From a virus, in IMG/VR virus record IMGVR_UViG_3300025308_000331, positions 1 through 38,549 of that record: 38,549 bases of DNA; one strand, 5' to 3'. Positions 1 through 38,549 of this stretch are shown here, piece after piece. Every line of letters begins with the position of its first letter. Position 1 is the stretch's first letter. The position numbers and the translations under genes were made by a program. The notes under the pieces are model-generated. The model searched no databases. It was not told where the DNA came from and saw nothing but the letters and a program-made list of their open reading frames with translations.

Positions 1-1041
1 TCAAGCCCGCACTGCCTTTTTGGCGGTGCGGGCTTTTTGTTTTTTGGATGTGGTCTTTACCAACTGGCTGAGCTTGTCCAGGGCAGTGCGCTGCTGCTCG
101 ATCTGCAGGTGCGCATAACGTTGGGTAGTCTGGGTGTTGCTGTGGCCAAGGATCTTGCCAATGGTGTAGAGGTCGACGCCCAGGCTCAGCAAAATGCTGG
201 CGCAACTGTGGCGCAGGTCGTGAAAGTTGACGTGCTCCATGCCGGCGTCCACACGGGCACGGCGCCAGGCGCTCTTGACACCGTCGACGGTGATGGTGAG
301 AGGGAAATGCTTGAGCCACGGCCGCAGGGCCGGGATGATGGGCACCACGCGCGGCCGCAGCGTCTTGGTGTGGCTGCTTGGGATGGTGATTTCATTGCGG
401 CCAATGTGCTCCGCCCGGATCTGGAACAATTCGCCACGTCGGGCCCCTGTGAGCAGGGCGGCCCAGATGGCCGCCTGGGCTTGTTCGCTGCAGTGGCTGG
501 CGATGGTGCGCACCTGGTCGACGGTGAGGAAGACCTCGCGCTTGTTGTTGACGGCGACAGTCTTGATGCGCAGGCCGTAGTTTTCCGGGGTGAGGTTCTG
601 CTCCCAGGCCAGGGCCAGGCCTTTCTTGGCCGTGGCCAGGCTGCGGTTGATGGTGGCTGCAGCGTAGGCGGGGGCCTTCTTGCCGGTCTTCGGGTCTTCA
701 ACCAGGCGGCTCATGTCCTTGATGACGTGAGCTGCAAACTCGCGCGCCTGGCTGGCGGTGTATTTCACGGCCCAGGGACCGAGGCGCTGGGCGTGGTGCT
801 TGGAGGTGTCGGCGCTGCGTAGGCGCGCAGCATGCTGCGTGTATAGGGCCAGGACGGCCGTCATGGGCGGGTCACCAGGCACTGAGACTTGTGCGCCCTT
901 GGCCATGGCGCCACGCAGCTGAGCCTCGATCAGCTGGGCATCACGCGAAGATGTGTTTTCCGGCAGGATGCGGTGAATTCGTTGGCCGCGGACCATAAGG
1001 CCGACGTGCCGACGCCCTTGTTTGTCTTGCCAGATTGACAT
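1..1041 (-). CDS. int: Tyrosine recombinase (phage integrase)
   Basis: 346-aa site-specific recombinase that would integrate and excise the prophage. The catalytic set is visible: Arg201 in TGARRGEL, Lys226, the HDLRH box (His274, Arg277), His300 in LGHS and the nucleophile Tyr309 in QRYAHL. The N-terminal half (about 60-160) looks like a SAM-like core-binding domain, and the tail is Lys/Arg-rich. The stop codon is the first three bases of the window, so the attachment site probably lies just outside. The start at 1041 has AAGGTG upstream on the coding strand and lies inside the 3' end of the excisionase-like gene. It is the last gene of the leftward operon. Confidence 0.95.
   Translation of the reverse strand: MSIWQDKQGRRHVGLMVRGQRIHRILPENTSSRDAQLIEAQLRGAMAKGAQVSVPGDPPMTAVLALYTQHAARLRSADTSKHHAQRLGPWAVKYTASQAREFAAHVIKDMSRLVEDPKTGKKAPAYAAATINRSLATAKKGLALAWEQNLTPENYGLRIKTVAVNNKREVFLTVDQVRTIASHCSEQAQAAIWAALLTGARRGELFQIRAEHIGRNEITIPSSHTKTLRPRVVPIIPALRPWLKHFPLTITVDGVKSAWRRARVDAGMEHVNFHDLRHSCASILLSLGVDLYTIGKILGHSNTQTTQRYAHLQIEQQRTALDKLSQLVKTTSKKQKARTAKKAVRA
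3..35 (+). terminator. Terminator-like hairpin in the end of int
   Basis: Perfect 10-bp inverted repeat (arms 3-12 and 26-35), followed on the plus strand by a T-rich run from 34 to 45. It is embedded in the last codons of the integrase. In the plus direction it has the form of a rho-independent terminator and could block transcription crossing the prophage edge towards int. Function is inferred from structure only. Confidence 0.5.
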
Positions 1042-1205
1042 GGTTGGTGCACCTTGAGCCAGTTCTTTACTTCGTCCAGGTTGTAGCGTTTCGACCTGGC
1101 ACCCACGGGCGTGAATGGTAGCCCATCATGCTCAAGCCGGCGAATGGTGGACTCGCTCACGCCCAGGGCGGCGCAGAGCTGCTGGCGAGTTAGTTCGGTT
1201 GACAT
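930..1205 (-). CDS. Excisionase-like / AlpA-type HTH protein
   Basis: 91-aa protein whose first 55 residues form a MerR/AlpA-like winged helix-turn-helix (TRQQLCAALGVSESTIRRLE, then a basic wing and an EVKNWLK helix). This is typical of phage excisionases and small DNA-binding regulators. The frame stays open past the integrase start, giving a 112-bp overlap in another frame, comparable to the xis/int overlap in lambda. The C-terminal residues after about 55 may be only a by-product of that overlap. Its position directly before int supports a role in controlling integration direction. AlpA-like transcription factor is the main alternative. Confidence 0.7.
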   Translation of the reverse strand: MSTELTRQQLCAALGVSESTIRRLEHDGLPFTPVGARSKRYNLDEVKNWLKVHQPCQSGKTNKGVGTSALWSAANEFTASCRKTHLRVMPS

Positions 1206-1212
1206 GGTCACT

Positions 1213-1539
1213 TCAGGCGTCTCCAAACATATCCACAGTGTGCTCACACCGCGGCGCTGATGTGGCTTGACCGGCCGGCACGTAGGCCGTGCACATGGGT
1301 TGGCCATCTTTGCCGTAGACCCACTCCTTGGCCTCGCCGGCGAAACTGGCCGCGATGATGGTGCAGACCTCGTCGTCGTCGCACTCATCCAGCTCCACGC
1401 CGTCGCGCATGGCGCGATCTCTGGCGCACTGGCGGCACCACTCAGACATGAATATCTCGCCCTCGGTGCCATTGCTCGGCTCGTAGCGTTGGCCGGCCTG
1501 CTCGACGTAGAGCTTGGCCAGATCTGCGGGGAATGTCAT
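1213..1539 (-). CDS. Conserved-looking phage protein, unknown function
   Basis: 108 aa, start chosen at 1539 because GGAGG lies six bases upstream. It contains a CRQCARDRAMRDG segment with a Cys-x-x-Cys pair, then an acidic DECDDDE stretch, and further cysteines near the C terminus (MCTAY, RCEHTV), so a small metal-binding fold is possible. No catalytic motif is recognised. It lies between the HTH gene downstream of the reverse transcriptase and the excisionase-like gene, in the same direction as the rest of the early operon. Confidence 0.7.
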   Translation of the reverse strand: MTFPADLAKLYVEQAGQRYEPSNGTEGEIFMSEWCRQCARDRAMRDGVELDECDDDEVCTIIAASFAGEAKEWVYGKDGQPMCTAYVPAGQATSAPRCEHTVDMFGDA

Positions 1540-1693
1540 GGCTTGCCTCCGCCGGAAATCCAGCAAGATGACGCCGAAAATTCAACGCGAGATATTCGGG
1601 CATCACTTTGGAGGTGCCGAATGCCAAAAATCATGCCTACTGAATGGCTCCGCTTGGCTGGGCTGCTGTCCCGCCTTGTGGTCAATGTTCTGA

Positions 1694-1990
1694 TCATGCT
1701 GCAGCACCTTCCTGATTGGATGTAGTCGGTCTCATGACTGGCCGGTGTTCACTGCGGCTCTTGTTCCTTGGCCGCTCACAGTGCGGTGGCGGCACCACCA
1801 CGCGCCACACAGCGCGATCGCCAAAGCCGTTGCTTTCCCAGTGGTGGATATAGGCATCGGGCATCTTGTGCAGCATGACCAGGGTGGTGGCTCTTTGAGC
1901 GCCGATCTGCCGCGCGATCGCAGGTGTGCTGAGTCCATCCGGGTAGGCGCGCAGCAGTTCACGGGTTTTTGTCATAGCTCGGCCGCTCAT
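1694..1990 (-). CDS. Small winged-helix protein coupled to the DGR reverse transcriptase
   Basis: 98 aa. The N-terminal 65 residues read as a winged helix: helix TKTRELLRAYPDG, helix-turn-helix STPAIARQIGAQRATTLVML, then a tryptophan-containing wing (HHWESNG, AVWRVVVPP). The C-terminal 30 residues are basic, polar and probably disordered. Its ATG overlaps the stop of the reverse transcriptase as ATGA (1987-1990), implying translational coupling. It could be a local regulator, a nucleic-acid-binding helper of retrohoming, or an ordinary phage gene that lies downstream by chance. Nothing in the sequence decides between these. Confidence 0.7.
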   Translation of the reverse strand: MSGRAMTKTRELLRAYPDGLSTPAIARQIGAQRATTLVMLHKMPDAYIHHWESNGFGDRAVWRVVVPPPHCERPRNKSRSEHRPVMRPTTSNQEGAAA

Positions 1991-3369
1991 GGTTGTTTCC
2001 TGTAAATCTTCGAAAGGTCCCCAGCCACCGCGTGCCCACGCCGGCGCAGCAGCCGGGCCACTTGCGCCTGGTCGGCGTGGCTGTGGGTGGCCTGGCGCAG
2101 CAGGCCCAGGTAGCTGTTGCCGGCGGTGTGCAGGTCTTCGGCCGGCATGCGCTCCAGGCGGCGCAGGGCCGTGGCCAGGGTGCGCGGCCGTGTGGTGCGC
2201 CGCCATGGCTTGATGACGTGGCCAACGAAGTCGATACCGCGGGCAATGGGCTGCAGGATGGTCTTGCTGGGGTTGGCGCGGGCGCCCAGGTACTGGGGCA
2301 GCCAGGCCTCGATATCTGCGCGCGCCTGGTTGAGCCACTGGGGTGACTCGTGCAGCAGGATGAAGTCGTCCACGTAGCGCACGTAGTGCCGGGCGCGCAG
2401 CTGGTGCTTGACGTGCTGGTCCAGCGCGTCAAGGTGGACGTTGGCGAAGAACTGGCTGCTCAGGTTGCCGATCGGCAAGCCCGTGTCCGCCGGCGCGTTG
2501 AACAGGCTCTTGTGGGGCGGCACCAGGGCCAGCTTGGCCGGGCTTCCGCGCAGCTCGACGTCGGTGCGCGGATCATGAAAGAGGATGGTGCGTGCCAGAG
2601 CCAGCCACCAGGGTTCGTGCACACGTTTGGCCAGCTGGGCCAGCAGGACGGGCTTGCTGATGGCCACGAAGAAGTTGGCCAGGTCCATCTTCAGGTAGTG
2701 CGCCGGGCGGCTCCAGTTTTGGGTGATGGAGCGCACGCTGTGCTCCAGCTGCAGGGCGGCGTACAGGGTGCCACGGCCTGGGATGCAGGCGCAGCTGGTG
2801 GCCACGAAGCCGGCATGGAAGCGCGGGGCAATGTGGTTGTACAGCAGGTGGTGCACGATGCGGTCGGCGAACTGGGCGGCCCACACCTCGCGCGGCCTGG
2901 GGCGGGTAACCACAAAGCAGATGCTGCGGCCAGGCTGGTAGGTGCCGTCGATCAGGCGCTGATACAGCGCCCAGAGGTTGGCCTCCAGCGCCTGCTCGAA
3001 TTGCAGGGCGCTGGCGGTGTTGCGCTTGTTGGCGCGGCAATCGAGGTAGGCCTGCACCAGGGCCTCGAACGAACACGGTGCGGTTGAATCTGCGGACGAA
3101 ACGAGCGGCACCGCCAGACCAGGACTTGTCGTTGTTGTTGGTGTTGCCGTTGTTGAAGTTCTGGTTCCAGGCGTTGTTGCGCGAGTACTGCGTCGGTGTT
3201 TGCTATCCACGTCGCCCTGCCGAAGGCGGGTGCCGATCGGCGGGGAAACTGCGCCGGACCAGGCCTGCCCTGGGGCAGCGGTATCCGTGGTGCGCATGTC
3301 CGTGGCCTTGTGGGCCAGGGGCAAGACCAGATTCAATTGACGTTCGGGCATGAGAACCTTGGATTTCAT
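1987..3369 (-). CDS. Diversity-generating retroelement reverse transcriptase
   Basis: 460 aa from the ATG that overlaps the stop of the Avd-like gene as ATGA. Residues about 101-460 are a group-II-like RT: motif A MDLANFF (Asp229), the DGR-type box GLPIGNLSSQ (297-306), catalytic YVDD (332-335) and the thumb-side NPSKT and GIDFVGHVIKP. DGR RTs copy the TR RNA into cDNA with errors at adenines, and the cDNA then replaces a VR. Residues 59-94 are the TR read in another frame, a Thr-rich stretch, and residues 1-58 show no known domain. An alternative start is GTG at 3057 with GAGG upstream, giving 356 aa, near the usual size of this family. The RT assignment is firm; the start is not. Confidence 0.95.
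   Translation of the reverse strand: MKSKVLMPERQLNLVLPLAHKATDMRTTDTAAPGQAWSGAVSPPIGTRLRQGDVDSKHRRSTRATTPGTRTSTTATPTTTTSPGLAVPLVSSADSTAPCSFEALVQAYLDCRANKRNTASALQFEQALEANLWALYQRLIDGTYQPGRSICFVVTRPRPREVWAAQFADRIVHHLLYNHIAPRFHAGFVATSCACIPGRGTLYAALQLEHSVRSITQNWSRPAHYLKMDLANFFVAISKPVLLAQLAKRVHEPWWLALARTILFHDPRTDVELRGSPAKLALVPPHKSLFNAPADTGLPIGNLSSQFFANVHLDALDQHVKHQLRARHYVRYVDDFILLHESPQWLNQARADIEAWLPQYLGARANPSKTILQPIARGIDFVGHVIKPWRRTTRPRTLATALRRLERMPAEDLHTAGNSYLGLLRQATHSHADQAQVARLLRRRGHAVAGDLSKIYRKQP
3088..3193 (-). repeat. DGR template repeat (TR)
   Basis: 106 bp, identical in length to VR1 and VR2. Read on the minus strand in the VR frame it has ten AAC codons plus a variable TAC and GAC, the adenine-rich codons that DGRs diversify, then a stretch of about 33 nt without any adenine encoding the constant SWSGGAARFVR end. 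It lies between the Avd-like gene and the RT catalytic core, the usual DGR order, but here within the open frame of the RT. Identity to the VRs stops abruptly at both ends. It has no downstream hairpin, unlike the VRs. Confidence 0.95.
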
Positions 3370-3728
3370 GCTGCTGACGTTTTTTCGGTGAGCTTGATCC
3401 ACCCGCCGCCTTGCGCACCCACGGCCTCCATCAGCTTGATGGCCTGTGCCCACTGCCCGGTGCTGACCAGGCGCTCGTCATTGCAGAAGCGCAGCAGCAG
3501 CTTGAGCCGGTCCAGGTGCTTGTGCATCAGCCGGATGGCTGTCACACGCGCCTGGCCCGTGGCTTCGTTGGCCTCGGCAATCTGCAGCACCACCTCCACG
3601 CCCAGGGCGTGCACGTCGCTGCCCGTGGTGTGCTTGAAGTCCTTGCGCATGTTTTTCTTGCATTGCGCCATCAGGCGCAGCAGGTCATACGCCGGCTTGT
3701 AGATGTTGAGCGTGGAGTAGTGGGCCAT
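3366..3728 (-). CDS. avd: DGR accessory variability determinant (Avd-like)
   Basis: 120 aa, almost wholly alpha-helical and strongly basic, with YKPAYDLLRLMAQCKKNMRK at residues 10-29 and later helices (RVTAIRLMHKHLDRLKLLLR). This matches the four-helix-bundle Avd proteins that assemble as pentamers, bind the RT and TR RNA and are needed for mutagenic retrohoming. Its size is close to the Bordetella phage Avd. The stop overlaps the RT start as ATGA. No clear ribosome-binding site precedes its ATG (ACACCCAC), which may keep expression low. It lies just downstream of the VR1 hairpin. Confidence 0.9.
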   Translation of the reverse strand: MAHYSTLNIYKPAYDLLRLMAQCKKNMRKDFKHTTGSDVHALGVEVVLQIAEANEATGQARVTAIRLMHKHLDRLKLLLRFCNDERLVSTGQWAQAIKLMEAVGAQGGGWIKLTEKTSAA

Positions 3729-3749
3729 GTGGGTGTAAAAGTGCGGCGG

Positions 3750-3768
3750 CCCGGCGCTGCGCGCCGGG
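3750..3768 (-). repeat. Hairpin downstream of VR1
   Basis: Perfect 8-bp GC stem (arms 3750-3757 and 3761-3768) with a 3-nt loop, GCA on the minus strand. It lies 35 nt beyond the end of VR1 and just after the target gene's stop. In studied DGRs a stem-loop or cruciform just downstream of the VR, absent from the TR, marks the recipient site for retrohoming. The same loop and core stem follow VR2. There is no U-run after it in the direction of transcription, so a terminator role is less likely. Confidence 0.8.
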
Positions 3769-3777
3769 TTAAAGGGT

Positions 3778-4323
3778 TCAAGGGATCAAGAGTTCAAGGG
3801 CAGATCTGCGGACGAAACGAGCGGCACCGCCAGACCAGGACTTGCCGTTGGAGTCGGTGAGGCCGTCGTAGAAGTACTGGCCCCAGGCGCTGCCGCGCGA
3901 GTACTGCGTGCTGGTCCAGTACCAGAGATCCGGGTCGAAGGCGTCGCAGCCGTTGGCCGCCAGGTTATGCATCTCGCGCAGCGATGGGATGTACAGGTCG
4001 GTCAGGCCGCCAATGCCTTGGACCAGTGGGGCCACCACGGGGTGCTCGTCGGCGTTGGCCAGCAGCGCCTGGGTGTTGGCCAGGCCGTCCCACTGGCAGG
4101 CCGCGCCGGGCTCTTCTTTGCCTGCGCCGCCCCAGGCGACCTTGCGCAGCTCGAACTCGGGGCCGTGCGGCACGATGATGGCGTAGTCCGCCTGGCCAGA
4201 GCCGGGCTTGGCGCGCTGCAGCGCCCAGAAGGCGCCGCCGAGGTGAGGCAGCATGGTGCCGAGCGGCGGCAGCTTGATGCCGCTGTGCTGGCCGGTGGGG
4301 ATCTCGATGGTTTCAGTGCTCAT
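3778..4323 (-). CDS. DGR target protein 1, DUF1566/C-type-lectin-like
   Basis: 181 aa with AGGAG five bases before the ATG. The second half resembles the DUF1566 / C-type-lectin-like fold of many DGR targets: QWDGLANTQALL, LYIPSLREMHNL, then LWYWTSTQYS leading into the variable region (residues 139-173). In the VR the diversified codons cluster around conserved AW, QYF and DG residues and end in the constant SWSGGAARFVRR. Differing surface residues would alter binding of an unknown ligand. No signal peptide or membrane helix is seen, so the protein is cytoplasmic or virion-borne. The N-terminal 85 residues have no recognised domain. It is a paralogue of the gene at 4384-4896. Confidence 0.9.
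   Translation of the reverse strand: MSTETIEIPTGQHSGIKLPPLGTMLPHLGGAFWALQRAKPGSGQADYAIIVPHGPEFELRKVAWGGAGKEEPGAACQWDGLANTQALLANADEHPVVAPLVQGIGGLTDLYIPSLREMHNLAANGCDAFDPDLWYWTSTQYSRGSAWGQYFYDGLTDSNGKSWSGGAARFVRRSALELLIP
3804..3909 (-). repeat. DGR variable repeat 1 (VR1)
   Basis: 106 bp aligned without gaps to the TR. There are 14 differences, in 10 of the 12 adenine-bearing variable codons, and every one falls where the TR has A on the coding strand. Examples are AAC to GGC, TAC, GAC, CTC and TCC. Non-adenine positions are identical. This is the fingerprint of adenine-specific mutagenic retrohoming and shows that the locus has been active. Confidence 0.95.
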
Positions 4324-4348
4324 GGTTGCTCCTGTGGAAAAAATTGGA

Positions 4349-4365
4349 CCGGCGCTGCGCGCCGG
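4349..4365 (-). repeat. Hairpin downstream of VR2
   Basis: Perfect 7-bp GC stem (4349-4355 and 4359-4365) with the same 3-nt loop as the VR1 hairpin, again starting 35 nt after the VR end. It shares the 7-bp core and loop exactly with the copy at 3750-3768, so the hairpin appears to have been duplicated with the VR cassette. Proposed role: recipient-site structure for retrohoming. Confidence 0.8.
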
Positions 4366-4383
4366 AAAAAAGGATTCAAGGGC

Positions 4384-4896
4384 TCAAGGAATCAAGGGGA
4401 ATCTGCGGACGAAACGAGCGGCACCGCCAGACCAGGACTTGTCGCTGTAGCCGGTGTTGCCGTAGAGGAAGTACTGGCTCCAGGCGTAGTCGCGCGAGCA
4501 CTGCGTGCTGGTCCAGTACCAGTAGTCGGTGTCGAATGCCTCGGCCGCATCGAGCAGGGGCTTGAGGTTGCCGTGCTGCAGCAGCGCACCCACGCGGGCG
4601 GGGACGTACCAGTCATCAAAGCCGCCGCTGCGGCAGGCCAGGGCGGCTTGCCCCAGGGGGCTGCCGGCTTCAGCCATGGCGCGGGTATTGGCCAGGCCAT
4701 CGGATGCGCTGGTGGCGCCAGGAACATCCTTGTAGTCCGGCAGCCAGACGAGATCCTTGACAAAGCAATCGGCCGCAGGGCCGGTGACTTCGCCATACAG
4801 CTTGCCGTCGACCAGCAAGACGCCGTGGAAGAAGCCGCCTTCGACCAGGTGGCCGAGGGCGGGGATGGAGAGTTTCAGGGTTTCGGGTGCGTTCAT
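4384..4896 (-). CDS. DGR target protein 2, DUF1566/C-type-lectin-like
   Basis: 170 aa, GGAG six bases before the ATG. It matches the DUF1566 pattern more fully than its paralogue: SDGLANTRAMAEAG, GGFDDWYVPARVGALL, then DYWYWTST and the variable region (residues 131-166) with the constant SWSGGAARFVRR end. The N-terminal 60 residues (HLVEGGFFHGVLLVDGKLY) look like a beta-rich extension. No secretion signal is seen. It is the promoter-proximal of the two targets and shares the TR, 3' spacer and hairpin with the other. The ligand is unknown; sensing, adsorption or anti-defence roles are all possible. Confidence 0.9.
   Translation of the reverse strand: MNAPETLKLSIPALGHLVEGGFFHGVLLVDGKLYGEVTGPAADCFVKDLVWLPDYKDVPGATSASDGLANTRAMAEAGSPLGQAALACRSGGFDDWYVPARVGALLQHGNLKPLLDAAEAFDTDYWYWTSTQCSRDYAWSQYFLYGNTGYSDKSWSGGAARFVRRFPLIP
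4401..4506 (-). repeat. DGR variable repeat 2 (VR2)
   Basis: 106 bp, gap-free against the TR, with 12 differences that all lie at TR adenines. One changes the TAC codon to TGC, giving a cysteine in place of the invariant-looking tyrosine. The pattern differs from VR1, so the two targets were diversified independently. The 33-nt adenine-free end is identical in TR, VR1 and VR2. Confidence 0.95.
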
Positions 4897-4923
4897 GGTG
4901 TGCTCCGGTTGGTGGGGAAAGGG

Positions 4924-5430
4924 TTAAGCGGCTTGCAGGGCATGGAAGTCGCGCATGAGGGTGACCTTGTCGCCGTTGGCCTTGATGTGGGCTTGGGCGG
5001 CATCAACGGCGGCCAGGAACTCGGCGCGGCCGAGCTGGTTGACCTGGAAGGTGTGCAGATCCACAAAGGTCTGCACCGCGTCCAGCTCGTAGTAGTGCAG
5101 GGCGGTTGGCTTCCACTGCCCGCTGGCCATGGCGCGGTCGTAGACGGCCTGCAGGGCCTGCGTGGCAGTGTTCAGGTGCTCGGACAGGCCGCGCACGATG
5201 CCCTGGTGCTCGATGGCCTTGGCCACGTCCACGGCGCCGGCGATGATGGACCACTGCAGCTCAGTGGCCACGCCTTCACGCAGGGCCTGGGCAGCCTGGC
5301 GCAGCATGTTGAGCACTTCCTCGTGGTCTGCTGCAGCTGGCTTGGCGGCACGGTGCAAGGCGATCTCCAGCGTGTTGACGGCGATCAGCCGCGGGCGGTA
5401 GGCCTTACGGGGTTTGTGGCTGCGGCTCAT
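4924..5430 (-). CDS. Helical phage protein, unknown function
   Basis: 168 aa from an ATG that overlaps the stop of the DUF550 gene as ATGA. It begins with a basic patch (MSRSHKPRKAYRPRLI), followed by long alanine- and leucine-rich helices (HEEVLNMLRQAAQALREG, IVRGLSEHLNTATQALQAVY). The basic N terminus could bind nucleic acid. Similar helical proteins with a KPRKAYRP-like start are, as far as I recall, common in Burkholderiales prophages without a function. It is the last tightly coupled gene before the DGR cassette, which starts after a 27-bp gap. Confidence 0.75.
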   Translation of the reverse strand: MSRSHKPRKAYRPRLIAVNTLEIALHRAAKPAAADHEEVLNMLRQAAQALREGVATELQWSIIAGAVDVAKAIEHQGIVRGLSEHLNTATQALQAVYDRAMASGQWKPTALHYYELDAVQTFVDLHTFQVNQLGRAEFLAAVDAAQAHIKANGDKVTLMRDFHALQAA

Positions 5431-6590
5431 GCTGCACCTCGCGTCGTGGCCTCGTTGATGCAGTTTTCGCACTCGTGCTGGTCGTCATCGTCCAGCGGCA
5501 TGGGCAGGGTGCCGGCACCCAACAGGCCGAAGACAGCGCCCAGGGCACGCGTGTGTTGCATGCAGGCGTAGGTTGGGCCGTTGACGGTATTGACCAGGAA
5601 CGCGGCGGGGTACTGTGGGCCGGCAAGTTCCGGCGCATCGACGGTGCGAACGTGCTCGATGGCCTGGTCTACCGGCATGGTGTGCCAGTCAGGCCACTGG
5701 CGGCCTTCGTTCTTGGTTTGCTTGGCCACCAGGGCGGTGATGATCTGTTCGGGTGTGGCACCGGTGCGCCAGGCGCCATCGAGCGCGAGGATGGCAACGT
5801 CGATCCACTCGCTCAGATCCTCCGGCTTGGCCAGTACCTCGATCAGTTCCTTGCGAATGTGGTCCACCACGCCCTGGGTGCGCATGCCGGGGCCGAAGGT
5901 GCGGGCGCTGAAAGCCTGCTGGCGTGTGAGGTGGGCGACCAGGTCGAAGGTGATGGGGCGGCCCTTGTCTGCCAGTTCGTCATCAACCTCGGTGTCGCCC
6001 AGGTACTGCCCACCCTCTCCGGGGTAGTCGGTACACCAGGCGAGGAGGCCTTTTTCGTGCCGGGCGATCGATACCTCGGTGTCGTGGCCACCGAAGAACG
6101 CGACCAGCTTCTCGGCCTGGCGCAGGGTGATGATCAGATCGGCGGCGATCGCGGGCTGGGGCTTTTCAAGGGGCTTGGGATCAACGCCAGCAGGAAGGTG
6201 GAGCATCCCTTCGTCTTTCGCGGCGTGCTGCCAGCAGTACAAGCCAGCGGGTGCGGGTGCGCCGTCCGTATCCTTTCCGAGGAGTTTCCACTGGAAACTC
6301 AGCCGCGCCTTGTTGTCGCCACCGCCCATGCCATCAATGGCATAGCGAAGCTGGCCGACGCTCATGGTGACGGGAGGGAGCAGGTGCACGACGCCATGTG
6401 GCATGACGTTCTGACCAGCATCAACGGCTTCGATTGGCGCATGAGCGGCCAATTTCTTTGCAGCCATTTCGACGAGACAGTCCTCCACCGTGTCACCTTC
6501 GATGGCTCCGACCGTGGTGGGGTTGCCCAGCGCTTTGCTGAGAGCAAGGATGTGCATGCGCTTGATGGGGGTGGTGTCGCTCGGTTTCAT
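5427..6590 (-). CDS. DUF550 (MazZ-like dATP/dGTP diphosphohydrolase) domain protein
   Basis: 387 aa. Residues about 225-310 match DUF550, a MazG-superfamily all-alpha nucleotide pyrophosphohydrolase domain. The metal-binding acids are visible as E248-x-x-E251 and E261-x-x-D264 (KELIEVLAK, LSEWIDVAILALDGAWR), followed by the family's KQTKNEGRQWPDW. Such domains hydrolyse dGTP/dATP to monophosphates and in some phages support base-modified DNA. The 220-residue N-terminal part is not recognised and the last 60 residues have a Cys pair (ECENC). No PurZ-like adenylosuccinate synthetase is in the window, so 2-aminoadenine synthesis is not supported. Both ends have ATGA overlaps. Confidence 0.8.
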   Translation of the reverse strand: MKPSDTTPIKRMHILALSKALGNPTTVGAIEGDTVEDCLVEMAAKKLAAHAPIEAVDAGQNVMPHGVVHLLPPVTMSVGQLRYAIDGMGGGDNKARLSFQWKLLGKDTDGAPAPAGLYCWQHAAKDEGMLHLPAGVDPKPLEKPQPAIAADLIITLRQAEKLVAFFGGHDTEVSIARHEKGLLAWCTDYPGEGGQYLGDTEVDDELADKGRPITFDLVAHLTRQQAFSARTFGPGMRTQGVVDHIRKELIEVLAKPEDLSEWIDVAILALDGAWRTGATPEQIITALVAKQTKNEGRQWPDWHTMPVDQAIEHVRTVDAPELAGPQYPAAFLVNTVNGPTYACMQHTRALGAVFGLLGAGTLPMPLDDDDQHECENCINEATTRGAA

Positions 6591-8716
6591 GCCACCACCT
6601 CCAGTTGACCGGCGTCAAAGGGCATGGCACCGCCACGCTTGAGCTTGACGGAGTAGACGCCGTCGCCCATGTCTTTGCCGATGGTGCCGTCTCGCCCGGC
6701 CCATTTGGCGGCGATGGGGCCGAGCTGGGCTTTGTCGGTGATGACGCGCACTGCCTGGCCAACGCTTAACGTGGCGGCCTTTGTGGGCGCTTTCTGGACC
6801 TTGTGGGATGTCAGCGCCTCGCTCGCCTTTTCGTCGGCGGTCTTGGGGAAGGGCCACGCTGCCATGGGGTTCATGCCGCCTGGCTTAGCGGGCGGCGCCA
6901 CTGCGCCCTTGGGCGCAGAAGCTGACCCCTCGATGCCCTGCAGCGCGTCAGCGATGCCTTGCTTTGCTTCCTCGGCCGAGATCTTCGCCGCGCGAGCGGG
7001 AGCGGTCGACGGCTTGCCCTTCGTTCCGCTCTTTCCCCCCGCACCCGCCTTAGCTTGCGCAGCAGGGGCGTTCGCGGTGGGCGCTTTTTTCTCCGGCTTG
7101 GGGTAGACGCGGTCTTTCACCTCGGCCTCGATGCGTTTGGTGACTTCCTTGAGCCTGTTGCCGTGCACGGCCTTGGTGACCAGATCGAAGCCTTCGCCGC
7201 TGCGGTTGTGCATGAGGAAGAGCAGGTGCAGCAGGTCGGGCAGCGAGTCCTTCTTCACCATCTCGGCCAGGCCGTGAGATGCCCCTACGCTGCCGACGTC
7301 CAGGATTTTGCTGACGGCTGCTGCAGCGTCTGAGTCCAGGCTGTGGGCGGCCTGCCTGGCCAGCATGCGATGCACTTCGATGTTGAAGTGGCCCAAGCCA
7401 ACGCGAGCGCCGTCGTCCATGCCTTCATTGGCCTGGATCAGTGCCCACGTTTCGGCGATGATCTGCGCCCGCACCTCGCGGTGGAACTTGGCATCCAGGC
7501 GGGCCTTCTCCTGGCTGGCCTTCTCGTCCAGCAGATCCTGCACGCCGGCGGGAGCGGCCTTCTTGTCGGCCTTGGCCTGCGCCTGGATCTCCTTCAGCAG
7601 GGTGTTGGCCACGTCATTGGGCAGGCAGGCCTCCAGCAGCCCCTTCTTGCTCGGGTGCTCCAGCATGGTGGGCTTGATGCCCTTTTCGTCCATGAGCTTG
7701 CCGATGAGTTTGCGCAGGGGTTCGCCGGTGGGGCTGTCTTCCTTGTTGTCCAGGCGTTTGTAGCCCTTGTAGCCGCCTTTGTAGTTGTTCACCTGCAGCT
7801 CGCGGGCCTCGCTGCCGGCAATGACGGTCTGGCCTTTGGCCTCGGCCTCTTTCACGAGCAGCTTGGCGGCGGCTTCTTCCTTCTTGTGGAAGCAGGGCGG
7901 GTCTGTGCACACGTCGGCACTCTTGACGTCGTGGAAGATGTCGGGGTTGGCGCCGGTGCGCTTGCTGCATTCTTTGCAGCTGCCGACGCCGGGCACCAGA
8001 TCCACCACGGTGATCTTGAACCGGGCGTCTGACAGCTTGAGCATGTAGCTGTCTTGCGCGAGCTGCTGGGCGCGGCGGAAGCTCATGGGTTCGCGGTCGT
8101 AGCCTTGGCCGCGCAGAACTTCCTGCAGGAACTTGGCCTGTTGCTTGCCGTCTGGAATGCGGGCCGCCAGCATGGCCACGCTGGCTTCGATCTTGCCCTC
8201 GCGCAGGGCGGCGCGGCCTTCGGTGCCCAGGTCGAGCAGCTTGAGGCGGTTGTAGACGTAGGTGCGGCTCTTGCCGATTTTCTCGGCCACGTCTTCGGGC
8301 TTGAGTTCCTTGTTGTGATCCATCAGGCACTGGTAGCCTTCGGCTTCCTCCAGCTCGGACAGGTCGCGGCGCTGGAGGTTCTCGATGATCTGGATCTCCA
8401 GCACCTGGTCGTCGGTGAGGTCCTTGATCATCACGGGGTATTCGTCCACGCCGCCAATCTCGCAGGCGCGGTCGCGGCATTCGCCACAGACAATCTCGTG
8501 GGTGACGTTGCGGGGGGTATCAGGCACGCGCCAGGCGGGCAGGGGGCGCAGCAGCAAAGGCTGGTGCACGCCGCTGGCCTTGACGCTGACGGCCAGCTCC
8601 TGCAGGTAATCTGCGGGGAAGGTCTTGCGTGGGTTGGTGGTGCTGCGGACGGCGTTTGCCCGCTTGAACATTGCGAACTGGGTGCCAGCGGCCTGGGTGG
8701 GCGGGTTCTTGGTCAT
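6587..8716 (-). CDS. ParB/Spo0J-like nuclease-family protein with zinc-ribbon-like insert
   Basis: 709 aa from the ATG that overlaps the upstream stop. Residues 20-110 are a ParB/Srx-like N-terminal domain, where the usual GERR-type CTP-binding box appears as CGECRDRAC (77-85). Then come the ENLQRRDLSELEEAEGY box (112-128) and a helix-turn-helix (EDVAEKIGKSRTYVYNRLKL). After it come cysteine clusters (SCKECSKRTG, VCTDPPCFHKKE) that probably bind zinc, a long helical middle, an Ala/Pro/Lys linker and a C-terminal SH3/KOW-like domain (residues about 645-709). Phage ParB-like proteins act in DNA binding or nicking, or as regulators. No ParA partner is nearby, so plasmid-type partition is unlikely. 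Confidence 0.85.
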   Translation of the reverse strand: MTKNPPTQAAGTQFAMFKRANAVRSTTNPRKTFPADYLQELAVSVKASGVHQPLLLRPLPAWRVPDTPRNVTHEIVCGECRDRACEIGGVDEYPVMIKDLTDDQVLEIQIIENLQRRDLSELEEAEGYQCLMDHNKELKPEDVAEKIGKSRTYVYNRLKLLDLGTEGRAALREGKIEASVAMLAARIPDGKQQAKFLQEVLRGQGYDREPMSFRRAQQLAQDSYMLKLSDARFKITVVDLVPGVGSCKECSKRTGANPDIFHDVKSADVCTDPPCFHKKEEAAAKLLVKEAEAKGQTVIAGSEARELQVNNYKGGYKGYKRLDNKEDSPTGEPLRKLIGKLMDEKGIKPTMLEHPSKKGLLEACLPNDVANTLLKEIQAQAKADKKAAPAGVQDLLDEKASQEKARLDAKFHREVRAQIIAETWALIQANEGMDDGARVGLGHFNIEVHRMLARQAAHSLDSDAAAAVSKILDVGSVGASHGLAEMVKKDSLPDLLHLLFLMHNRSGEGFDLVTKAVHGNRLKEVTKRIEAEVKDRVYPKPEKKAPTANAPAAQAKAGAGGKSGTKGKPSTAPARAAKISAEEAKQGIADALQGIEGSASAPKGAVAPPAKPGGMNPMAAWPFPKTADEKASEALTSHKVQKAPTKAATLSVGQAVRVITDKAQLGPIAAKWAGRDGTIGKDMGDGVYSVKLKRGGAMPFDAGQLEVVA

Positions 8717-9300
8717 TGAGGCTGCTCCTGTGTGGTGGGGTTGTCCAGGCCAAGGTAGGTGCGCCATGGCACCTTCTTGTCTTTGACCAGGAAGCCCCAT
8801 GTGCCGCGCTTACGGCCGGTGATGAAAAGCGTCCAGACGCCGCCGGGGCTCACCTCGCTGATGCGGTGGTATTGGCCGAAGAGCAGGCGGCCGGTGTAGC
8901 CGGCGTTGCGCTTGTAGATCTCGCGCAGGCGACGGTCCACAAGTCGGGTGGTCTCGGACGGCGGTGCATATTCGTCGAAGGGGCGCTCTTCGCGGTACCA
9001 GCCGCTCAGCACGATGGTGCGGGCGTTCCACGGGTGGTCGTGCAGGTCACGGTCCTGGTCGGCGCGGCAGATATGGTGGATACGCGCGCTAGGCAGCCAC
9101 GGGATGCGGGCCGGCGTCTGTTCGTCATTGGCGTCGCGGCCGTAGGGGTTGAACAGCCACCAGCGGCCCATGTAAACGCTGCTGCCGTCTGCGCTGGTGA
9201 TGTGGGTGTACGGGGTGCGCTGGGCACGGCGAATGATCCAGTCCACCAGGCGGGGGTGGCTGGCCAGGGTGCGGGCGATGATTTGCCAGAGGGTGCTCAT
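8713..9300 (-). CDS. Cupin-like metal-binding phage protein
   Basis: 195 aa, start at 9300. The centre carries a cupin-type metal motif, RDLHDHPWNARTIVLSGWYRE, with the two histidines of an HxH box, and a later strand set (YHRISEVSPGGVWTLFITG) whose histidine could complete the site. The protein would be a small beta-barrel enzyme or sensor. Its substrate is unknown. It lies between two unknown small genes and the ParB-like gene, with an ATGA overlap to the latter. Confidence 0.7.
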   Translation of the reverse strand: MSTLWQIIARTLASHPRLVDWIIRRAQRTPYTHITSADGSSVYMGRWWLFNPYGRDANDEQTPARIPWLPSARIHHICRADQDRDLHDHPWNARTIVLSGWYREERPFDEYAPPSETTRLVDRRLREIYKRNAGYTGRLLFGQYHRISEVSPGGVWTLFITGRKRGTWGFLVKDKKVPWRTYLGLDNPTTQEQPQ

Positions 9301-9302
9301 GT

Positions 9303-9551
9303 TCAGGCGCTCCTCTGGCTGGGTGCAACGCTGCCGGGCACAACGCGATCGCGCGTGCGGTGCACGGCGTCTATATCCACCTCGGCCAGCAGGGGCGTGG
9401 TGCCGGACCACTGGCGCTTGGTGGTGGTGATGATGTCCAGCGCGGCGGACTGGGCGGCGCTGCAGGGGGCACCGATGGCGGGTTTGAAGTCAGTGTGGAT
9501 GGCCACGCCGCCGGCGGGTGTGTCTGTGAGGGTGATGGTTACGGTTGGCAT
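9303..9551 (-). CDS. Small phage protein, unknown function
   Basis: 82 aa, start at 9551, overlapping the upstream gene by 13 bp. It starts with beta-like strands and a glycine pair (TVTITLTDTPAGGVAIHTDF), then PAIGAPCSAAQSAALDIITT. I recall this pattern in short proteins of many GC-rich phages without known function. The C-terminal 25 residues are polar. Confidence 0.65.
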   Translation of the reverse strand: MPTVTITLTDTPAGGVAIHTDFKPAIGAPCSAAQSAALDIITTTKRQWSGTTPLLAEVDIDAVHRTRDRVVPGSVAPSQRSA

Positions 9552-9883
9552 GGGGCTTCCTCTTGTGCTTCGGGGATGACGTGGATGTGGCTGGCGGTGG
9601 CGCCGAGGCGCACGCTCACCAGTGGGGCCTGCACGGTGACGCGCATGCCACGCTTGAGGCGGTGGGCTGCAGCGCGGGCCTGTTCGTGCGATGCGGCTGG
9701 GAATGGCTGCTCGACATGCATGGGGGTGTGCAGGGCGTTGTCGAGCTCGATGTCCATGCAGAGCACGGGCACGGTGTGGCCCTGGCCGTCCAGCACCTTG
9801 GTGCGGGCTTCGGCCTGGTGGAGCAGGGTGCCGGTGTATTCCATGACCGGCGTGCCCTGTGCAGACGTGTGCACGGCGCTCAT
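9539..9883 (-). CDS. Possible OB-fold (SSB-like) phage protein
   Basis: 114 aa, start at 9883 overlapping the upstream stop as ATGA. The strand order (VMEYTGTLLHQAEARTKVLD, TVPVLCMDIELDN, KRGMRVTVQAPLVSVRLGA, ASHIHVIP) suggests a small OB-type beta-barrel of the kind seen in single-strand DNA-binding proteins. No signature residues confirm this. The operon setting with ParB- and nucleotide-metabolism genes would suit a replication accessory protein. Confidence 0.6.
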   Translation of the reverse strand: MSAVHTSAQGTPVMEYTGTLLHQAEARTKVLDGQGHTVPVLCMDIELDNALHTPMHVEQPFPAASHEQARAAAHRLKRGMRVTVQAPLVSVRLGATASHIHVIPEAQEEAPCQP

Positions 9884-10188
9884 GGCAGTGCAGCCAGCAA
9901 GGTGGCGCCCCATTCGCGCACGGCATCTGCCGCCTGGTGCGGGTTGCCCATGAGCCAGAGGCCGAAGCCCATGCCGAAGGCGATGCACACCACCAGCAGC
10001 ATCCAGCAGGCGCAGAGCGCAAGGGCACCTTCGGCGCGGAAGAACTCGTCGCCCAGGTCGACGATGGGCATGTCGCTATGGGGGCGGGTGGTGTCCACCT
10101 GTGCGCCGCCATTGCGGGTGTGCAGGTGGGCTCGTACAGGGCAATCTGCGCCCCGGGTGCATTGGCCGAAGTCGTTGCAGCAGTTCAT
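9880..10188 (-). CDS. Small membrane protein with N-terminal cysteines
   Basis: 102 aa, start at 10188. It opens with a cysteine-bearing head (MNCCNDFGQCTRGADCPVRA) and has one strong transmembrane helix around residues 60-85 (ALCACWMLLVVCIAFGMGFG). It overlaps both neighbours by 4 bp. The upstream gene product also has a transmembrane helix, so the two may meet in the inner membrane. Function unknown. Confidence 0.7.
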   Translation of the reverse strand: MNCCNDFGQCTRGADCPVRAHLHTRNGGAQVDTTRPHSDMPIVDLGDEFFRAEGALALCACWMLLVVCIAFGMGFGLWLMGNPHQAADAVREWGATLLAALP

Positions 10189-10751
10189 GGCTGTGCTCCT
10201 GCCAGTCGCACGGCGTAGGGTTTGAGACCGTGGCGGGGGTTGCACTGGATGGCGCCGCTGCCGAGCTCTTCCCACTCGGCATTGCCACAGATGGCGCGGG
10301 CCATGACGTTCAGGCGCTGGCGTTGCTGCTCACCGCGCTGGGCGTCTTCAAGATCCTGGGCGACGGCCACCTCGGTGCTGTGGTCGCTGATGGTGAAGGT
10401 GTCCAGGTGAAACGAACTGGCCAGGAGGAGGCCCAGCAGCACCGCGGCGAAGATGCTAAGTAGCAGGCTCAGCAGCGGGGTGTAGATGTTGCCGGCCTGG
10501 GCACGCTGGGGGCGGTGCATGTCGCGGGCACAGGGCCAGCCACGGCGGTGGATGTCTTCGGGCGCAATGCCAAAGTCCTCCAGGTCCCCGGGGTGCATGC
10601 TGGTAAGGTGCAGCGCGCCGGGGCAGGTGCCCAGGCTGGGGTGCCAGTCGTCAATGACGTGGCGGCACTTGAACTCGACCTGCAGGGCGGCTTTTTGCCG
10701 GGTCTTGCCCCAGCCCTGGGGGGCGCTGAGGATGATGGTGGGGGCGCTCAT
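10185..10751 (-). CDS. P-loop-like membrane protein, unknown function
   Basis: 188 aa. The N terminus has a Walker A-like loop (ILSAPQGWGKTRQKAAL, residues 7-23) followed by an acidic VIDDWHP, so part of a P-loop NTPase fold is likely, although it is too short for a full one. A transmembrane helix follows (YTPLLSLLLSIFAAVLLGLL, about 90-110) and then a hydrophilic C terminus. It could be two ancestral units joined: a truncated P-loop domain and an Rz-like membrane unit. The 4-bp overlaps with both neighbours tie it to the operon. Confidence 0.65.
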   Translation of the reverse strand: MSAPTIILSAPQGWGKTRQKAALQVEFKCRHVIDDWHPSLGTCPGALHLTSMHPGDLEDFGIAPEDIHRRGWPCARDMHRPQRAQAGNIYTPLLSLLLSIFAAVLLGLLLASSFHLDTFTISDHSTEVAVAQDLEDAQRGEQQRQRLNVMARAICGNAEWEELGSGAIQCNPRHGLKPYAVRLAGAQP

Positions 10752-11344
10752 GCCGGCACCTCTGTGCGCAACATCAGGTCGGCGCTGCTCAGGCGGAGAT
10801 TGCTGGGCTGTGTTTCATGCTCCACCAGGTAAACATCGAAGTGCGTGGTTTCCCGTGTGTAAGGAAGCCGCACACCGTGATGGCGGATGGCTTCCAGCTG
10901 CCCCGGGTCCACGCTGCGCGGCTCAAGTCGCTCGCTGAGGTTGATGGCCTTCACGCCATCTCCGGCAAGGCCTAAGATCAAGCGGCGCGCCAGCAGGCGC
11001 CTGCCGCTGCCCTGTGGCCCTACAACATGAATGAACGAGGAAGCCGATGACAAACGACGAGATGGAGACCCGCATCCTGCGCCTTGAGACGCGCCTTGCA
11101 GCGACTCAGGTGCTATTGCATACCTTTTTGCCAGCCACAGTCCCAGACCGACGTCATCAGATCCTGCGGCAGTTCGGGCAGTACTGCGCTGCCACGGAAG
11201 CTGATCTGAAGACGCAAGGCGTTCCTGAGGCTGACCGGCGGTGGCAGCTTGCAGAACTGGCGCAGATGTATTCGGCCTTGGACGGCGCGCTGAATTTGCT
11301 CCAGGAATGGGAAGCCAAGAAAAAAAGCGGCTGAGGTGCTTCAT
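10748..11344 (-). CDS. Putative P-loop protein overlapping an antisense gene
   Basis: 198 aa if it starts at 11344, where its ATG overlaps the upstream stop as ATGA. The C-terminal half (from about residue 103) looks genuine: SSFIHVVGPQGSGRRLLARR carries a Walker A-like GxxGSGRR, then VKAINLSERLEP and FDVYLVEHET. The N-terminal half is Ser/Arg/Pro/Ala-rich and exactly opposite the plus-strand gene at 11047-11334, so it may not be translated, or it may be an old coding segment now serving the other strand. Its partner at 10185 has a similar P-loop start, suggesting paralogy or a shared complex. Confidence 0.5.
   Translation of the reverse strand: MKHLSRFFSWLPIPGANSARRPRPNTSAPVLQAATAGQPQERLASSDQLPWQRSTARTAAGSDDVGLGLWLAKRYAIAPESLQGASQGAGCGSPSRRLSSASSFIHVVGPQGSGRRLLARRLILGLAGDGVKAINLSERLEPRSVDPGQLEAIRHHGVRLPYTRETTHFDVYLVEHETQPSNLRLSSADLMLRTEVPA
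11047..11334 (+). CDS. Antisense-oriented small helical protein
   Basis: 95 aa on the plus strand inside the leftward operon. The amino-acid make-up is natural and amphipathic (MTNDEMETRILRLETRLAAT, LAELAQMYSALDGALNLL), and AGGAAG sits a few bases before the ATG. This makes it a better protein than the opposite frame. No clear promoter is seen. If expressed, its transcript would be antisense to the early operon and could lower its expression. Function unknown. Confidence 0.6.
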   Translation: MTNDEMETRILRLETRLAATQVLLHTFLPATVPDRRHQILRQFGQYCAATEADLKTQGVPEADRRWQLAELAQMYSALDGALNLLQEWEAKKKSG

Positions 11345-11772
11345 GCCGACACCTCGACCAGGTTGCCGAAGTCGTCGCAGACCATGTCGCCCAGGTTGCG
11401 TTCCCACTTGATGCCTGCGGCGTCGACCAGCTCCATGTAGCCAGCCCAGTGTGCGGGGGACCACCAGCCGGCCATGACGCGGCTGTTACGCCAACTCTCG
11501 GGTTCTTCGCGGCGGCGGTACAGGCGCACGTTGCCGCCCCGGCCGTCACGGATGTGGATGTCGTCACCCTCGATGTGGATACGCTTGGTGTCGGCATCCA
11601 GTGGGTGCAGGACGGTGATGCCGTCCTTGGCGCTTAAGTCTTCGAGCAGCTTGGACCGGGCTTCGGCCTCGATCTGCTGGATCAGCTTGGTAGCTGCAGG
11701 GCTGAGAGCTACCGGAGCGCTATGGCCCCGGGGCACGCCGCGCCTGGCGCGCGGTTGTGTGGATGTCTGCAC
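11341..11772 (-). CDS. First gene of the leftward operon, unknown function
   Basis: 143 aa with a GTG start at 11772, preceded by AAGGAG at six bases. The basic N terminus is followed by a helix (AATKLIQQIEAEARSKLLED) and a beta region (KRIHIEGDDIHIRDGRGGNV). Then comes a tryptophan-rich segment (SWRNSRVMAGWWSPAHWAGY). No family recognised. As promoter-proximal gene it would be made first after derepression. Confidence 0.7.
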   Translation of the reverse strand: MQTSTQPRARRGVPRGHSAPVALSPAATKLIQQIEAEARSKLLEDLSAKDGITVLHPLDADTKRIHIEGDDIHIRDGRGGNVRLYRRREEPESWRNSRVMAGWWSPAHWAGYMELVDAAGIKWERNLGDMVCDDFGNLVEVSA

Positions 11773-36545: not shown

Positions 36546-37505
36546 ATGGATCGCGTTTACGCATCGAACGTTTCGGCCACGCCGCCATCCCCGCCCGCCA
36601 GCCCGGCAGTGGGGTACCCCCGGTCGGGGAACCCGAGCACCGCCACCGAGGCCACCAAGACGGGGCCGTACTGGGTCTACATGATCACGGAGAGTCTGCG
36701 CAAGCTCATCGTGGATGCCGGCCTCACGCCTGACCATACCAATCTCAACCTGGTCAGCCAGGCAGTGCAGGCCATGATCGCCGGCGGTTCGGCGAACGAC
36801 TACAAGACCAGCGTCCGCTTCACCACTACCGGCAACATCACGCTATCCGGCCTGGGCACGCAGGCCGGTGGTGACTGGGGCGCGGCGCTGACTGCCGGCG
36901 ACCGGATTCTGCCCAAAGACCAAACCACGGGTAGCGAGAACGGCATCTATATCGCCGCTGCTGGAGCCTGGACACGCGCCACCGATGCCGATGGCGTGGG
37001 CGAGCTGACCAGCGGCTCCGTCGTTGCGGTCGAAGAAGGCGCGACACTGGCCGACAGCCAGTGGATGTTGACGACGGACGGAGCGATCACTATCGGAACG
37101 ACTCCATTGGCATTCGTCGAAAAGGGATCTCCCTTTGCCTCAGCTGCTGAGGCGCGGGCTTTCGCTGTTGGAAATAAGTCCATTTCCCCTTTGACCCTGG
37201 GTCAGGCTTTTCAGGGCTCTAATCAATCGATTGCAGCCGCGGGATATCAGAAGCTCCCGGGCGGCTTAATTCTTCAGTGGGCCACACTGACAACTGACGC
37301 CAGCGGGTTCGCAACGATCACCTACCCGATTGCATTCCCTACTGCCGCGCTTGTTGCCATCCCGGGTGGCGCTGATACGAACTATTACGCCATCCGAGAG
37401 ACGAACAGGACCAGCACAACGCGGACCTATCACCTGACAGTTTCAAGCACCGGAGCCAATGCGCCGGCCGGTATTGGCTTTGGCGTTATTGCGCTCGGCA
37501 CTTGA
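36546..37505 (+). CDS. Tail fibre protein
   Basis: 319 aa. After a short virion-binding N terminus it contains a common fibre module (TTGNITLSGLGTQAGGDWG, DRILPKDQTTGSENGIYIAA, ADSQWMLTTDGAITIGTTPL). The C-terminal module (GYQKLPGGLILQWATLTTDA, SGFATITYPIAFPTAALVAI) is a gp53-like tip found on many unrelated phages. GC drops around 37,140-37,290, consistent with a swapped tip. No DGR variable repeat is present here. Confidence 0.85.
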   Translation: MDRVYASNVSATPPSPPASPAVGYPRSGNPSTATEATKTGPYWVYMITESLRKLIVDAGLTPDHTNLNLVSQAVQAMIAGGSANDYKTSVRFTTTGNITLSGLGTQAGGDWGAALTAGDRILPKDQTTGSENGIYIAAAGAWTRATDADGVGELTSGSVVAVEEGATLADSQWMLTTDGAITIGTTPLAFVEKGSPFASAAEARAFAVGNKSISPLTLGQAFQGSNQSIAAAGYQKLPGGLILQWATLTTDASGFATITYPIAFPTAALVAIPGGADTNYYAIRETNRTSTTRTYHLTVSSTGANAPAGIGFGVIALGT

Positions 37506-38363: not shown

Positions 38364-38549
38364 ATGGCTGAACCAGCTTCAACCACCGCCGGCGTTACGT
38401 TCATTGCCGCAACAGCCACCATACCGGTGCTGACCATTCTCGGCGTGCCGCTCGGCCTGCGCGTTGACCTGCTGGTGGCCGGTTTTGCTGGCGCGCTGGT
38501 TGCCATCATCCTGCTAAATACCGTGCCGGCCATGGGTGACACATGGGTG
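38364..38549 (+). CDS. Holin-like protein, cut by the window edge
   Basis: First 62 codons only. GGAGG upstream and two hydrophobic segments (TFIAATATIPVLTILGVPLG and DLLVAGFAGALVAIILLN) fit small phage holins, which permeabilise the inner membrane to release the endolysin. Its place after the tail fibre genes is the normal lysis position. The endolysin presumably follows outside the window. Confidence 0.65.
   Translation, partial: MAEPASTTAGVTFIAATATIPVLTILGVPLGLRVDLLVAGFAGALVAIILLNTVPAMGDTWV

Follow-up and report, generated by a model that had tools for sequence, protein, structure and literature searches.

The retroelement and its repeats

The DNA analysed here, hereafter the window, is the entire IMG/VR record IMGVR_UViG_3300025308_000331 (38,549 nucleotides), a viral sequence whose minus strand carries a diversity-generating retroelement (DGR) with genes for a reverse transcriptase (RT) and an Avd accessory protein, one template repeat (TR) and two target genes that each contain a variable repeat (VR1 and VR2) (Table 1). 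Between avd and TR lies a structured RNA of the Rfam family RT-15, which covaries with the 3' boundary of the TR. An earlier note on this DNA, made from its letters alone, had proposed a complete DGR with two targets and one template, and RT, TR, Avd, VR1 and VR2 are indeed all present. That note mentioned neither RT-15, nor its pairing with the TR 3' boundary, nor the commonness of two targets per TR.

The RT matches RVT_1 (E 2.3e-13) and phrog_1423 'Reverse transcriptase' (E 1.7e-111) in the profile searches that the earlier note had suggested, and it carries the YVDD and DGR-type GLPIGNLSSQ (GxxxSQ) motifs already read from its translation. It is 31% identical to Brt of Bordetella phage BPP-1 across most of its length and aligns with the solved RT chain 8ub7 (E 1.7e-38). 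Together with the PHROG and Avd matches, the identity to Brt places the enzyme inside the DGR clade, a point on which the earlier note had made its proposal depend. The Avd-like gene is now identified by profiles as well: bAvd (PF22296) matches above its cut-off and phrog_3206 'Avd protein of DGR' with E 2e-26, and the NCBIfam Avd model matches below that model's cut-off. A sequence search of Avd against solved structures returned no match.

TR, VR1 and VR2 were compared in register by script over 106 nt of the minus strand, and their positions and length agree exactly with those first proposed. VR1 departs from TR at 14 positions (A>G 8, A>T 4, A>C 2) and VR2 at 12 (A>G 6, A>T 5, A>C 1), the same counts as before. 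All 26 differences fall on template adenines, which make up 30 of the 106 nt of TR, and there are zero non-adenine mismatches; if differences were randomly placed, the chance of all falling on A would be 1.4e-9 (14) and 3.9e-8 (12). Sequence identity between TR and VRs ends at the repeat borders, and a scan of the whole window found no third VR, the next best site having 35 non-A mismatches. The suggestion that the two VRs are independent outcomes is fair, if not complete. They differ from each other at 14 sites, but at five of the seven adenines changed in both they share the same new base; the excess of shared bases is not significant (about p 0.1, our own estimate from the observed base bias).

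Another Curvibacter prophage (L113), about 90% identical to the window across the cassette region, has the same TR base for base, and the four VRs of the two phages are all different and depart from it only at A. VRs are thus not fixed among these related prophages, nor do they show non-adenine substitutions, in a comparison that the earlier note had also proposed. In a third phage (L002), TR differs from that of the window at nine positions, at eight of which it has no A, and both L002 VRs follow their own TR at all eight (8/8). Because L113 combines an identical TR with different VRs, and the L002 VRs follow a changed TR, these alignments show concerted evolution of TR and VRs through repeated homing. 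The adenine-only pattern and this concerted evolution between phages corroborate the claim of past mutagenic retrohoming into both paralogues.

The gene order target-target-avd-TR-RT is the usual one in 117 related loci scanned, and such loci often have a second, sometimes a third, more distant VR. Since this order is usual here and paired targets are known elsewhere too, two targets per TR are ordinary in this lineage, at over 100 loci, and the cassette as such adds one more DGR of known type. Remote extra VRs 3-6 kb upstream of RT occur in L006, L008, L019, L045, L054, L058, L073, L097, L098 and L105; they are additional targets served by the same TR.

Table 1. Features of the window, their coordinates and the basis of each assignment
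Feature	Position	Strand	Basis
Tyrosine integrase of the prophage	1..1041	-	PF00589 E 4.5e-23; host junction in L119
DGR reverse transcriptase, conserved core	1987..3072	-	RVT_1, phrog_1423, BPP-1 Brt similarity
Clamp 3' strand CAGAUUCAA, last 5 nt of TR and 4 nt of flank	3084..3092	-	covariation scan, held-out loci, RT tree
Template repeat TR	3088..3193	-	repeat comparison
RT-15 RNA (RF03018), structured 5' module of the template RNA, ends at TR start	3191..3382	-	Rfam cmscan, covariation
RT-15 junction (closing helix P2 and hairpins P3-P5)	3198..3326	-	structure and covariation
RT-15 closing helix P2	3326-3321 with 3203-3198	-	structure alignment
RT-15 hairpins P3, P4, P5	3320-3300, 3295-3251, 3249-3211	-	structure alignment
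Clamp 5' strand UUGAAUCUG	3328..3336	-	covariation scan, held-out loci, RT tree
RT-15 helix P1, hairpin over avd stop codon	3348..3371	-	structure and covariation
Avd accessory protein	3366..3728	-	PF22296, phrog_3206
Perfect GC-rich inverted repeat ~30 nt 3' of VR1, possible target hairpin	3750..3768	-	inverted-repeat comparison
Target protein 1 (Lcl_C/DUF1566-like), VR1 near 3' end	3778..4323	-	profile searches
Variable repeat VR1	3804..3909	-	repeat comparison
Perfect GC-rich inverted repeat ~30 nt 3' of VR2, possible target hairpin	4349..4365	-	inverted-repeat comparison
Target protein 2 (Lcl_C/DUF1566-like), VR2 near 3' end	4384..4896	-	profile searches, fold
Variable repeat VR2	4401..4506	-	repeat comparison

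RT-15 and the clamp helix

The RT-15 match covers the full model (1-192) with E 7.7e-39 and 157.8 bits, against a gathering threshold of 82. RT-15 lies at the TR in all 23 Rfam-scanned stretches that carry this RT (13 and 9 relatives and the window), and it scores above threshold even where the upstream RT frame of a relative is closed. All 23 above-cut-off matches in 20 whole genomes fall inside DGR loci; they include two places beyond the related loci (L132, L133), which adjoin a DGR RT and TR-VR pairs. Wherever coordinates were compared, TR starts within about 2 nt of the RT-15 3' end. An Rfam search across 369 genomes of the class returned solely the window's own host, a metagenome-assembled genome (MAG). 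Of these two places, L132 (6492-6671) belongs to another, more remote DGR (RT 57% identical) that also has RT-15 and shares its Polaromonas genome with the DGR of L086.

In Polaromonas L092 (4862-5944, also L037) a PAPS-reductase-like gene stands between TR and RT, and RT-15 remains fused to TR. These two loci represent a natural separation of the RT-15/TR module (about 290 nt) from the RT gene.

Covariation in helices P1-P5 was measured on 52 diverse loci and 41 pairs and compared with 500 shuffles and slid controls. Of the cells in these helices 96.6% are paired, and 33 of the 41 pairs show changes on both sides, where shuffles give 14.9 such pairs and slid controls 11-17; none of the 500 shuffles reaches the observed covariation. 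Scanning the RT-15 columns against TR and its 3' flank in one alignment gave one further strongly covarying helix, nine pairs between columns 65-73 and 368-376, here called the clamp. In the window, UUGAAUCUG (3336-3328) pairs with CAGAUUCAA (3092-3084). Neither the number of paired cells nor the covariation score of the clamp is reached in 500 shuffles, and slid controls are all far lower. Its most informative pair is kept in 40 of 41 held-out loci (shuffle maximum 30 in 2000 trials), and on a maximum-likelihood RT tree six of six independent G-to-C contrasts agree (sign test 0.03). In the Rfam model, which ends at TR, UUGAAUCUGG is unpaired and there is no clamp. Other RT-15/TR pairings owed their high scan scores to conservation only; they showed no covariation and were not adopted.

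Targets and prophage setting

The two target proteins are paralogues and match Pfam Lcl_C weakly by sequence, below the cut-off. Among PDB entries, a structural model of target 2 (pLDDT 94.6) best matches the Legionella Lcl C-terminal domain (probability 1.00, E 7e-4). The next match is the Bacteroides fimbrial protein BACOVA_04982, cited elsewhere as resembling DGR targets of Bacuni phages (PMC8143477). According to the model, the targets are C-type-lectin-like proteins, a family clearer here by fold than by sequence, and both VRs lie near the 3' ends of such target genes, as in other DGRs. Near-identical hairpins with 7-8 bp stems follow both VRs and are also found in the relatives L002 and L003. 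The target site of BPP-1 has a GC-rich hairpin 4-34 bp downstream of VR with a 7-10 bp stem and a GRNA loop (PMC3240598); the hairpins in the window are without a GRNA loop. Across the lineage such downstream hairpins are modestly enriched (26/188 vs 97/1395), and the target hairpin was dropped as a lineage-wide feature for that reason.

Bases 1-11,640 of the window are identical to a contig end of the MAG Curvibacter sp. GWA2_64_110. In this contig (L119) the prophage sequence continues into chromosomal DNA, with tRNA-Val(CAC) directly outside the integrase end, which bears out the earlier description of the element as prophage-borne. On these sequences the virus is integrated in a Curvibacter groundwater bacterium, and the integrase sits at the host attachment site as seen at the left junction only. 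As the record stops at 38549 ahead of any clear lysis module, it probably lacks the right end of the prophage. The DGR targets lie near the integrase and far from a predicted tail fibre gene (36546-37505), inside which a repeat scan of the whole window found no VR. The early region also holds a 737-aa ParB-like protein (6587-8800, phrog_4715).

Mechanism, alternatives and related systems

We consider it about 90% probable that the window holds a complete DGR of a Curvibacter prophage with two paralogous targets, in which the RT-15 fold and the clamp loop the TR out. This reading joins the adenine-only signature, the concerted evolution of TR and VRs, the families or folds of RT, Avd and targets, and the covarying RNA with its clamp. 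An RT-Avd complex would copy a single transcript containing RT-15 and TR, making errors at adenines, and the complementary DNA (cDNA) would take the place of VR1 and VR2, altering residues of the presumed binding face in both paralogous, C-type-lectin-like targets; these may bind ligands on hosts or competitors. The branched fold of RT-15 lies directly 5' of TR. Because one of its strands pairs with the TR 3' boundary while RT-15 abuts the TR 5' end, TR would be looped out, with both ends held by the RNA module. RT-15 may recruit or bind RT-Avd, P2, next to the 5' end of TR, may terminate cDNA synthesis, and the clamp at the TR 3' end could set the cDNA start and perhaps supply the primer.

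Several observations weigh against this reading. P2 is weak in the window, where four of its six pairs form, and the minimum-energy fold of the window has all nine clamp pairs but lacks P2. Single-sequence folding predicts the clamp strongly in 22% of loci and not in most, a figure that falls to 0% when the 9-mer is scrambled. Clamp pair 68-373 is unpaired in 22 of 50 sequences. The clamp was picked by a column-pair scan of one alignment, which the held-out test mitigates. Finally, no diversification within one population is seen: the window sequence recurs only in the MAG (L082/L119), and that copy is identical.

Retrons have a structured 5' RNA module with the template 3' of it and the ends held by pairing between 5' and 3' strands. 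The likeness to them is one of layout, with no sign of branched priming here, and the RT and accessory protein here are of the DGR kind. We tentatively raise the possibility of a retron-like template RNA in which RT-15 holds the template by 3'-end pairing and cDNA is primed from its clamp strand (near 3328-3326). The 3' direction of this strand points straight into TR, and such priming would be unlike that from the BPP-1 spacer 3' of TR.

A rather unlikely explanation for the conservation of spacer and TR is that they code for the RT N-terminus, with TR lying inside the RT gene as part of its coding sequence. The window keeps the RT frame open across TR and spacer (1987-3453). Among relatives this frame is open through TR in 100 of 108 loci, and within the spacer the other two frames are mostly closed. 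The 87 open-frame loci show 14 different distances between a spacer landmark and the RT core, each a multiple of three, and start codons after TR are rare. The multiple-of-three count, however, is conditioned on an open frame, and several relatives with closed frames or an ATG of their own keep an intact RT-15. In contrast to the RT core, where substitutions by codon position are 0.196/0.165/0.487, the spacer shows no codon periodicity (0.317/0.319/0.357). The conserved spacer was therefore rejected as an RT N-terminus, and frame continuity is kept as a side observation. The start codon itself is uncertain; a start codon survey points to GTG 3109-3111 inside TR or to a position further upstream. 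A conserved ATGA at the avd end was rejected as the RT start because it forms one strand of the covarying helix P1, and an RT-frame ATG overlaps the avd stop in 41 of 108 loci only. We read the region of spacer and TR as RNA first and possibly also translated in part; in many members translation through it may accompany the RNA role.

It is improbable that RT-15 acts outside the template RNA, as a regulatory element or separate small RNA controlling avd-RT expression. Such a role would fit its overlap with the avd stop codon within the presumed avd-RT mRNA, and its Rfam entry is only that of an sRNA gene, with a name taken from the RT association and no DGR label. Yet RT-15 meets the TR start almost to the nucleotide, covaries with the TR 3' boundary, and stays beside TR where a foreign gene parts TR from RT in Polaromonas. 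Very unlikely, too, is a fossil cassette, with old VR differences and a system no longer working in this phage: the identical MAG copy speaks for it, but RT, Avd and both targets are intact, non-A differences are zero, and in a close relative the TR is identical and the VRs differ. That the repeats reflect no more than paralogy or gene conversion of the target genes, which are paralogous and share five identical VR substitutions, can practically be dismissed, as conversion would neither restrict the differences to adenines of the template (p about 1e-9 and 4e-8), nor explain the third copy beside RT, nor let identity stop at the repeat borders.

The favoured reading, a TR looped out by RT-15 and the clamp, finds its closest described counterpart in the BPP-1 DGR (avd-TR-Sp-brt, mtd), which shares the related RT (31%), Avd, adenine-specific TR-to-VR transfer, a C-type-lectin-fold target and a temperate phage. 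BPP-1 has one tail target, whereas here two small target proteins lie on the integrase side. In BPP-1, TR directly follows avd, and a structured spacer, RF03022 (2750-2882 of AY029185, L129), separates TR from brt; in the window the structured RNA comes between avd and TR, with the start of the RT core ~15 nt past the TR. An Rfam scan found no RT-15 in BPP-1, and RF03022 has no match in window positions 1-6000 at E up to 1. A BPP-1-like 3' spacer hidden in the RT coding sequence was rejected, as 4-fold sites in codons 1-60 vary about like elsewhere (0.48-0.56). Since the BPP-1 spacer lies 3' of TR, recruits bRT-Avd and contains the adenine that primes (PMC12875486), the same recruitment and priming jobs are presumably done from the other side of TR in this lineage, by analogy. 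RF03022 is named a DGR RNA in Rfam and RT-15 by RT association; other RT-n families might be DGR RNAs.

DiGReF cassette classes include two VRs per TR and a TR that overlaps the RT open reading frame at its 5' end (PMC3521204), and multiple-VR DGRs are known (PMC6642488). The window resembles these in its two VRs from one TR and its TR within an open RT frame; these papers classify layout and, in the available text, mention no structured RNA 5' of TR. Isolated but more distant relatives are Burkholderia phage Magia and Pseudomonas phages Cruim01 and Haboob, which share the RT lineage (63-66% identity), RT-15 at the TR and two VRs. The Magia targets are already annotated as lectin-fold possible DGR targets and the Cruim01 RT-15 as misc_RNA. 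Compared with RF03018, which the window matches at full length with the same helices, the pairing of the clamp strand is an addition. A literature search, whose coverage excluded the original RT-15 description, found no paper on RT-15 RNA. Judged without that first listing, the template RNA architecture is apparently an undescribed variant.

The RNA result outweighs the cassette itself in importance. RT-15, an Rfam family so far known by association, gains a role, and the place of the structured module in DGR template RNAs proves not to be fixed, as it can sit on either side of the template. RT-15 and TR form a compact natural system, separable from the RT gene in Polaromonas, for studying how mutagenic cDNA synthesis starts and ends.

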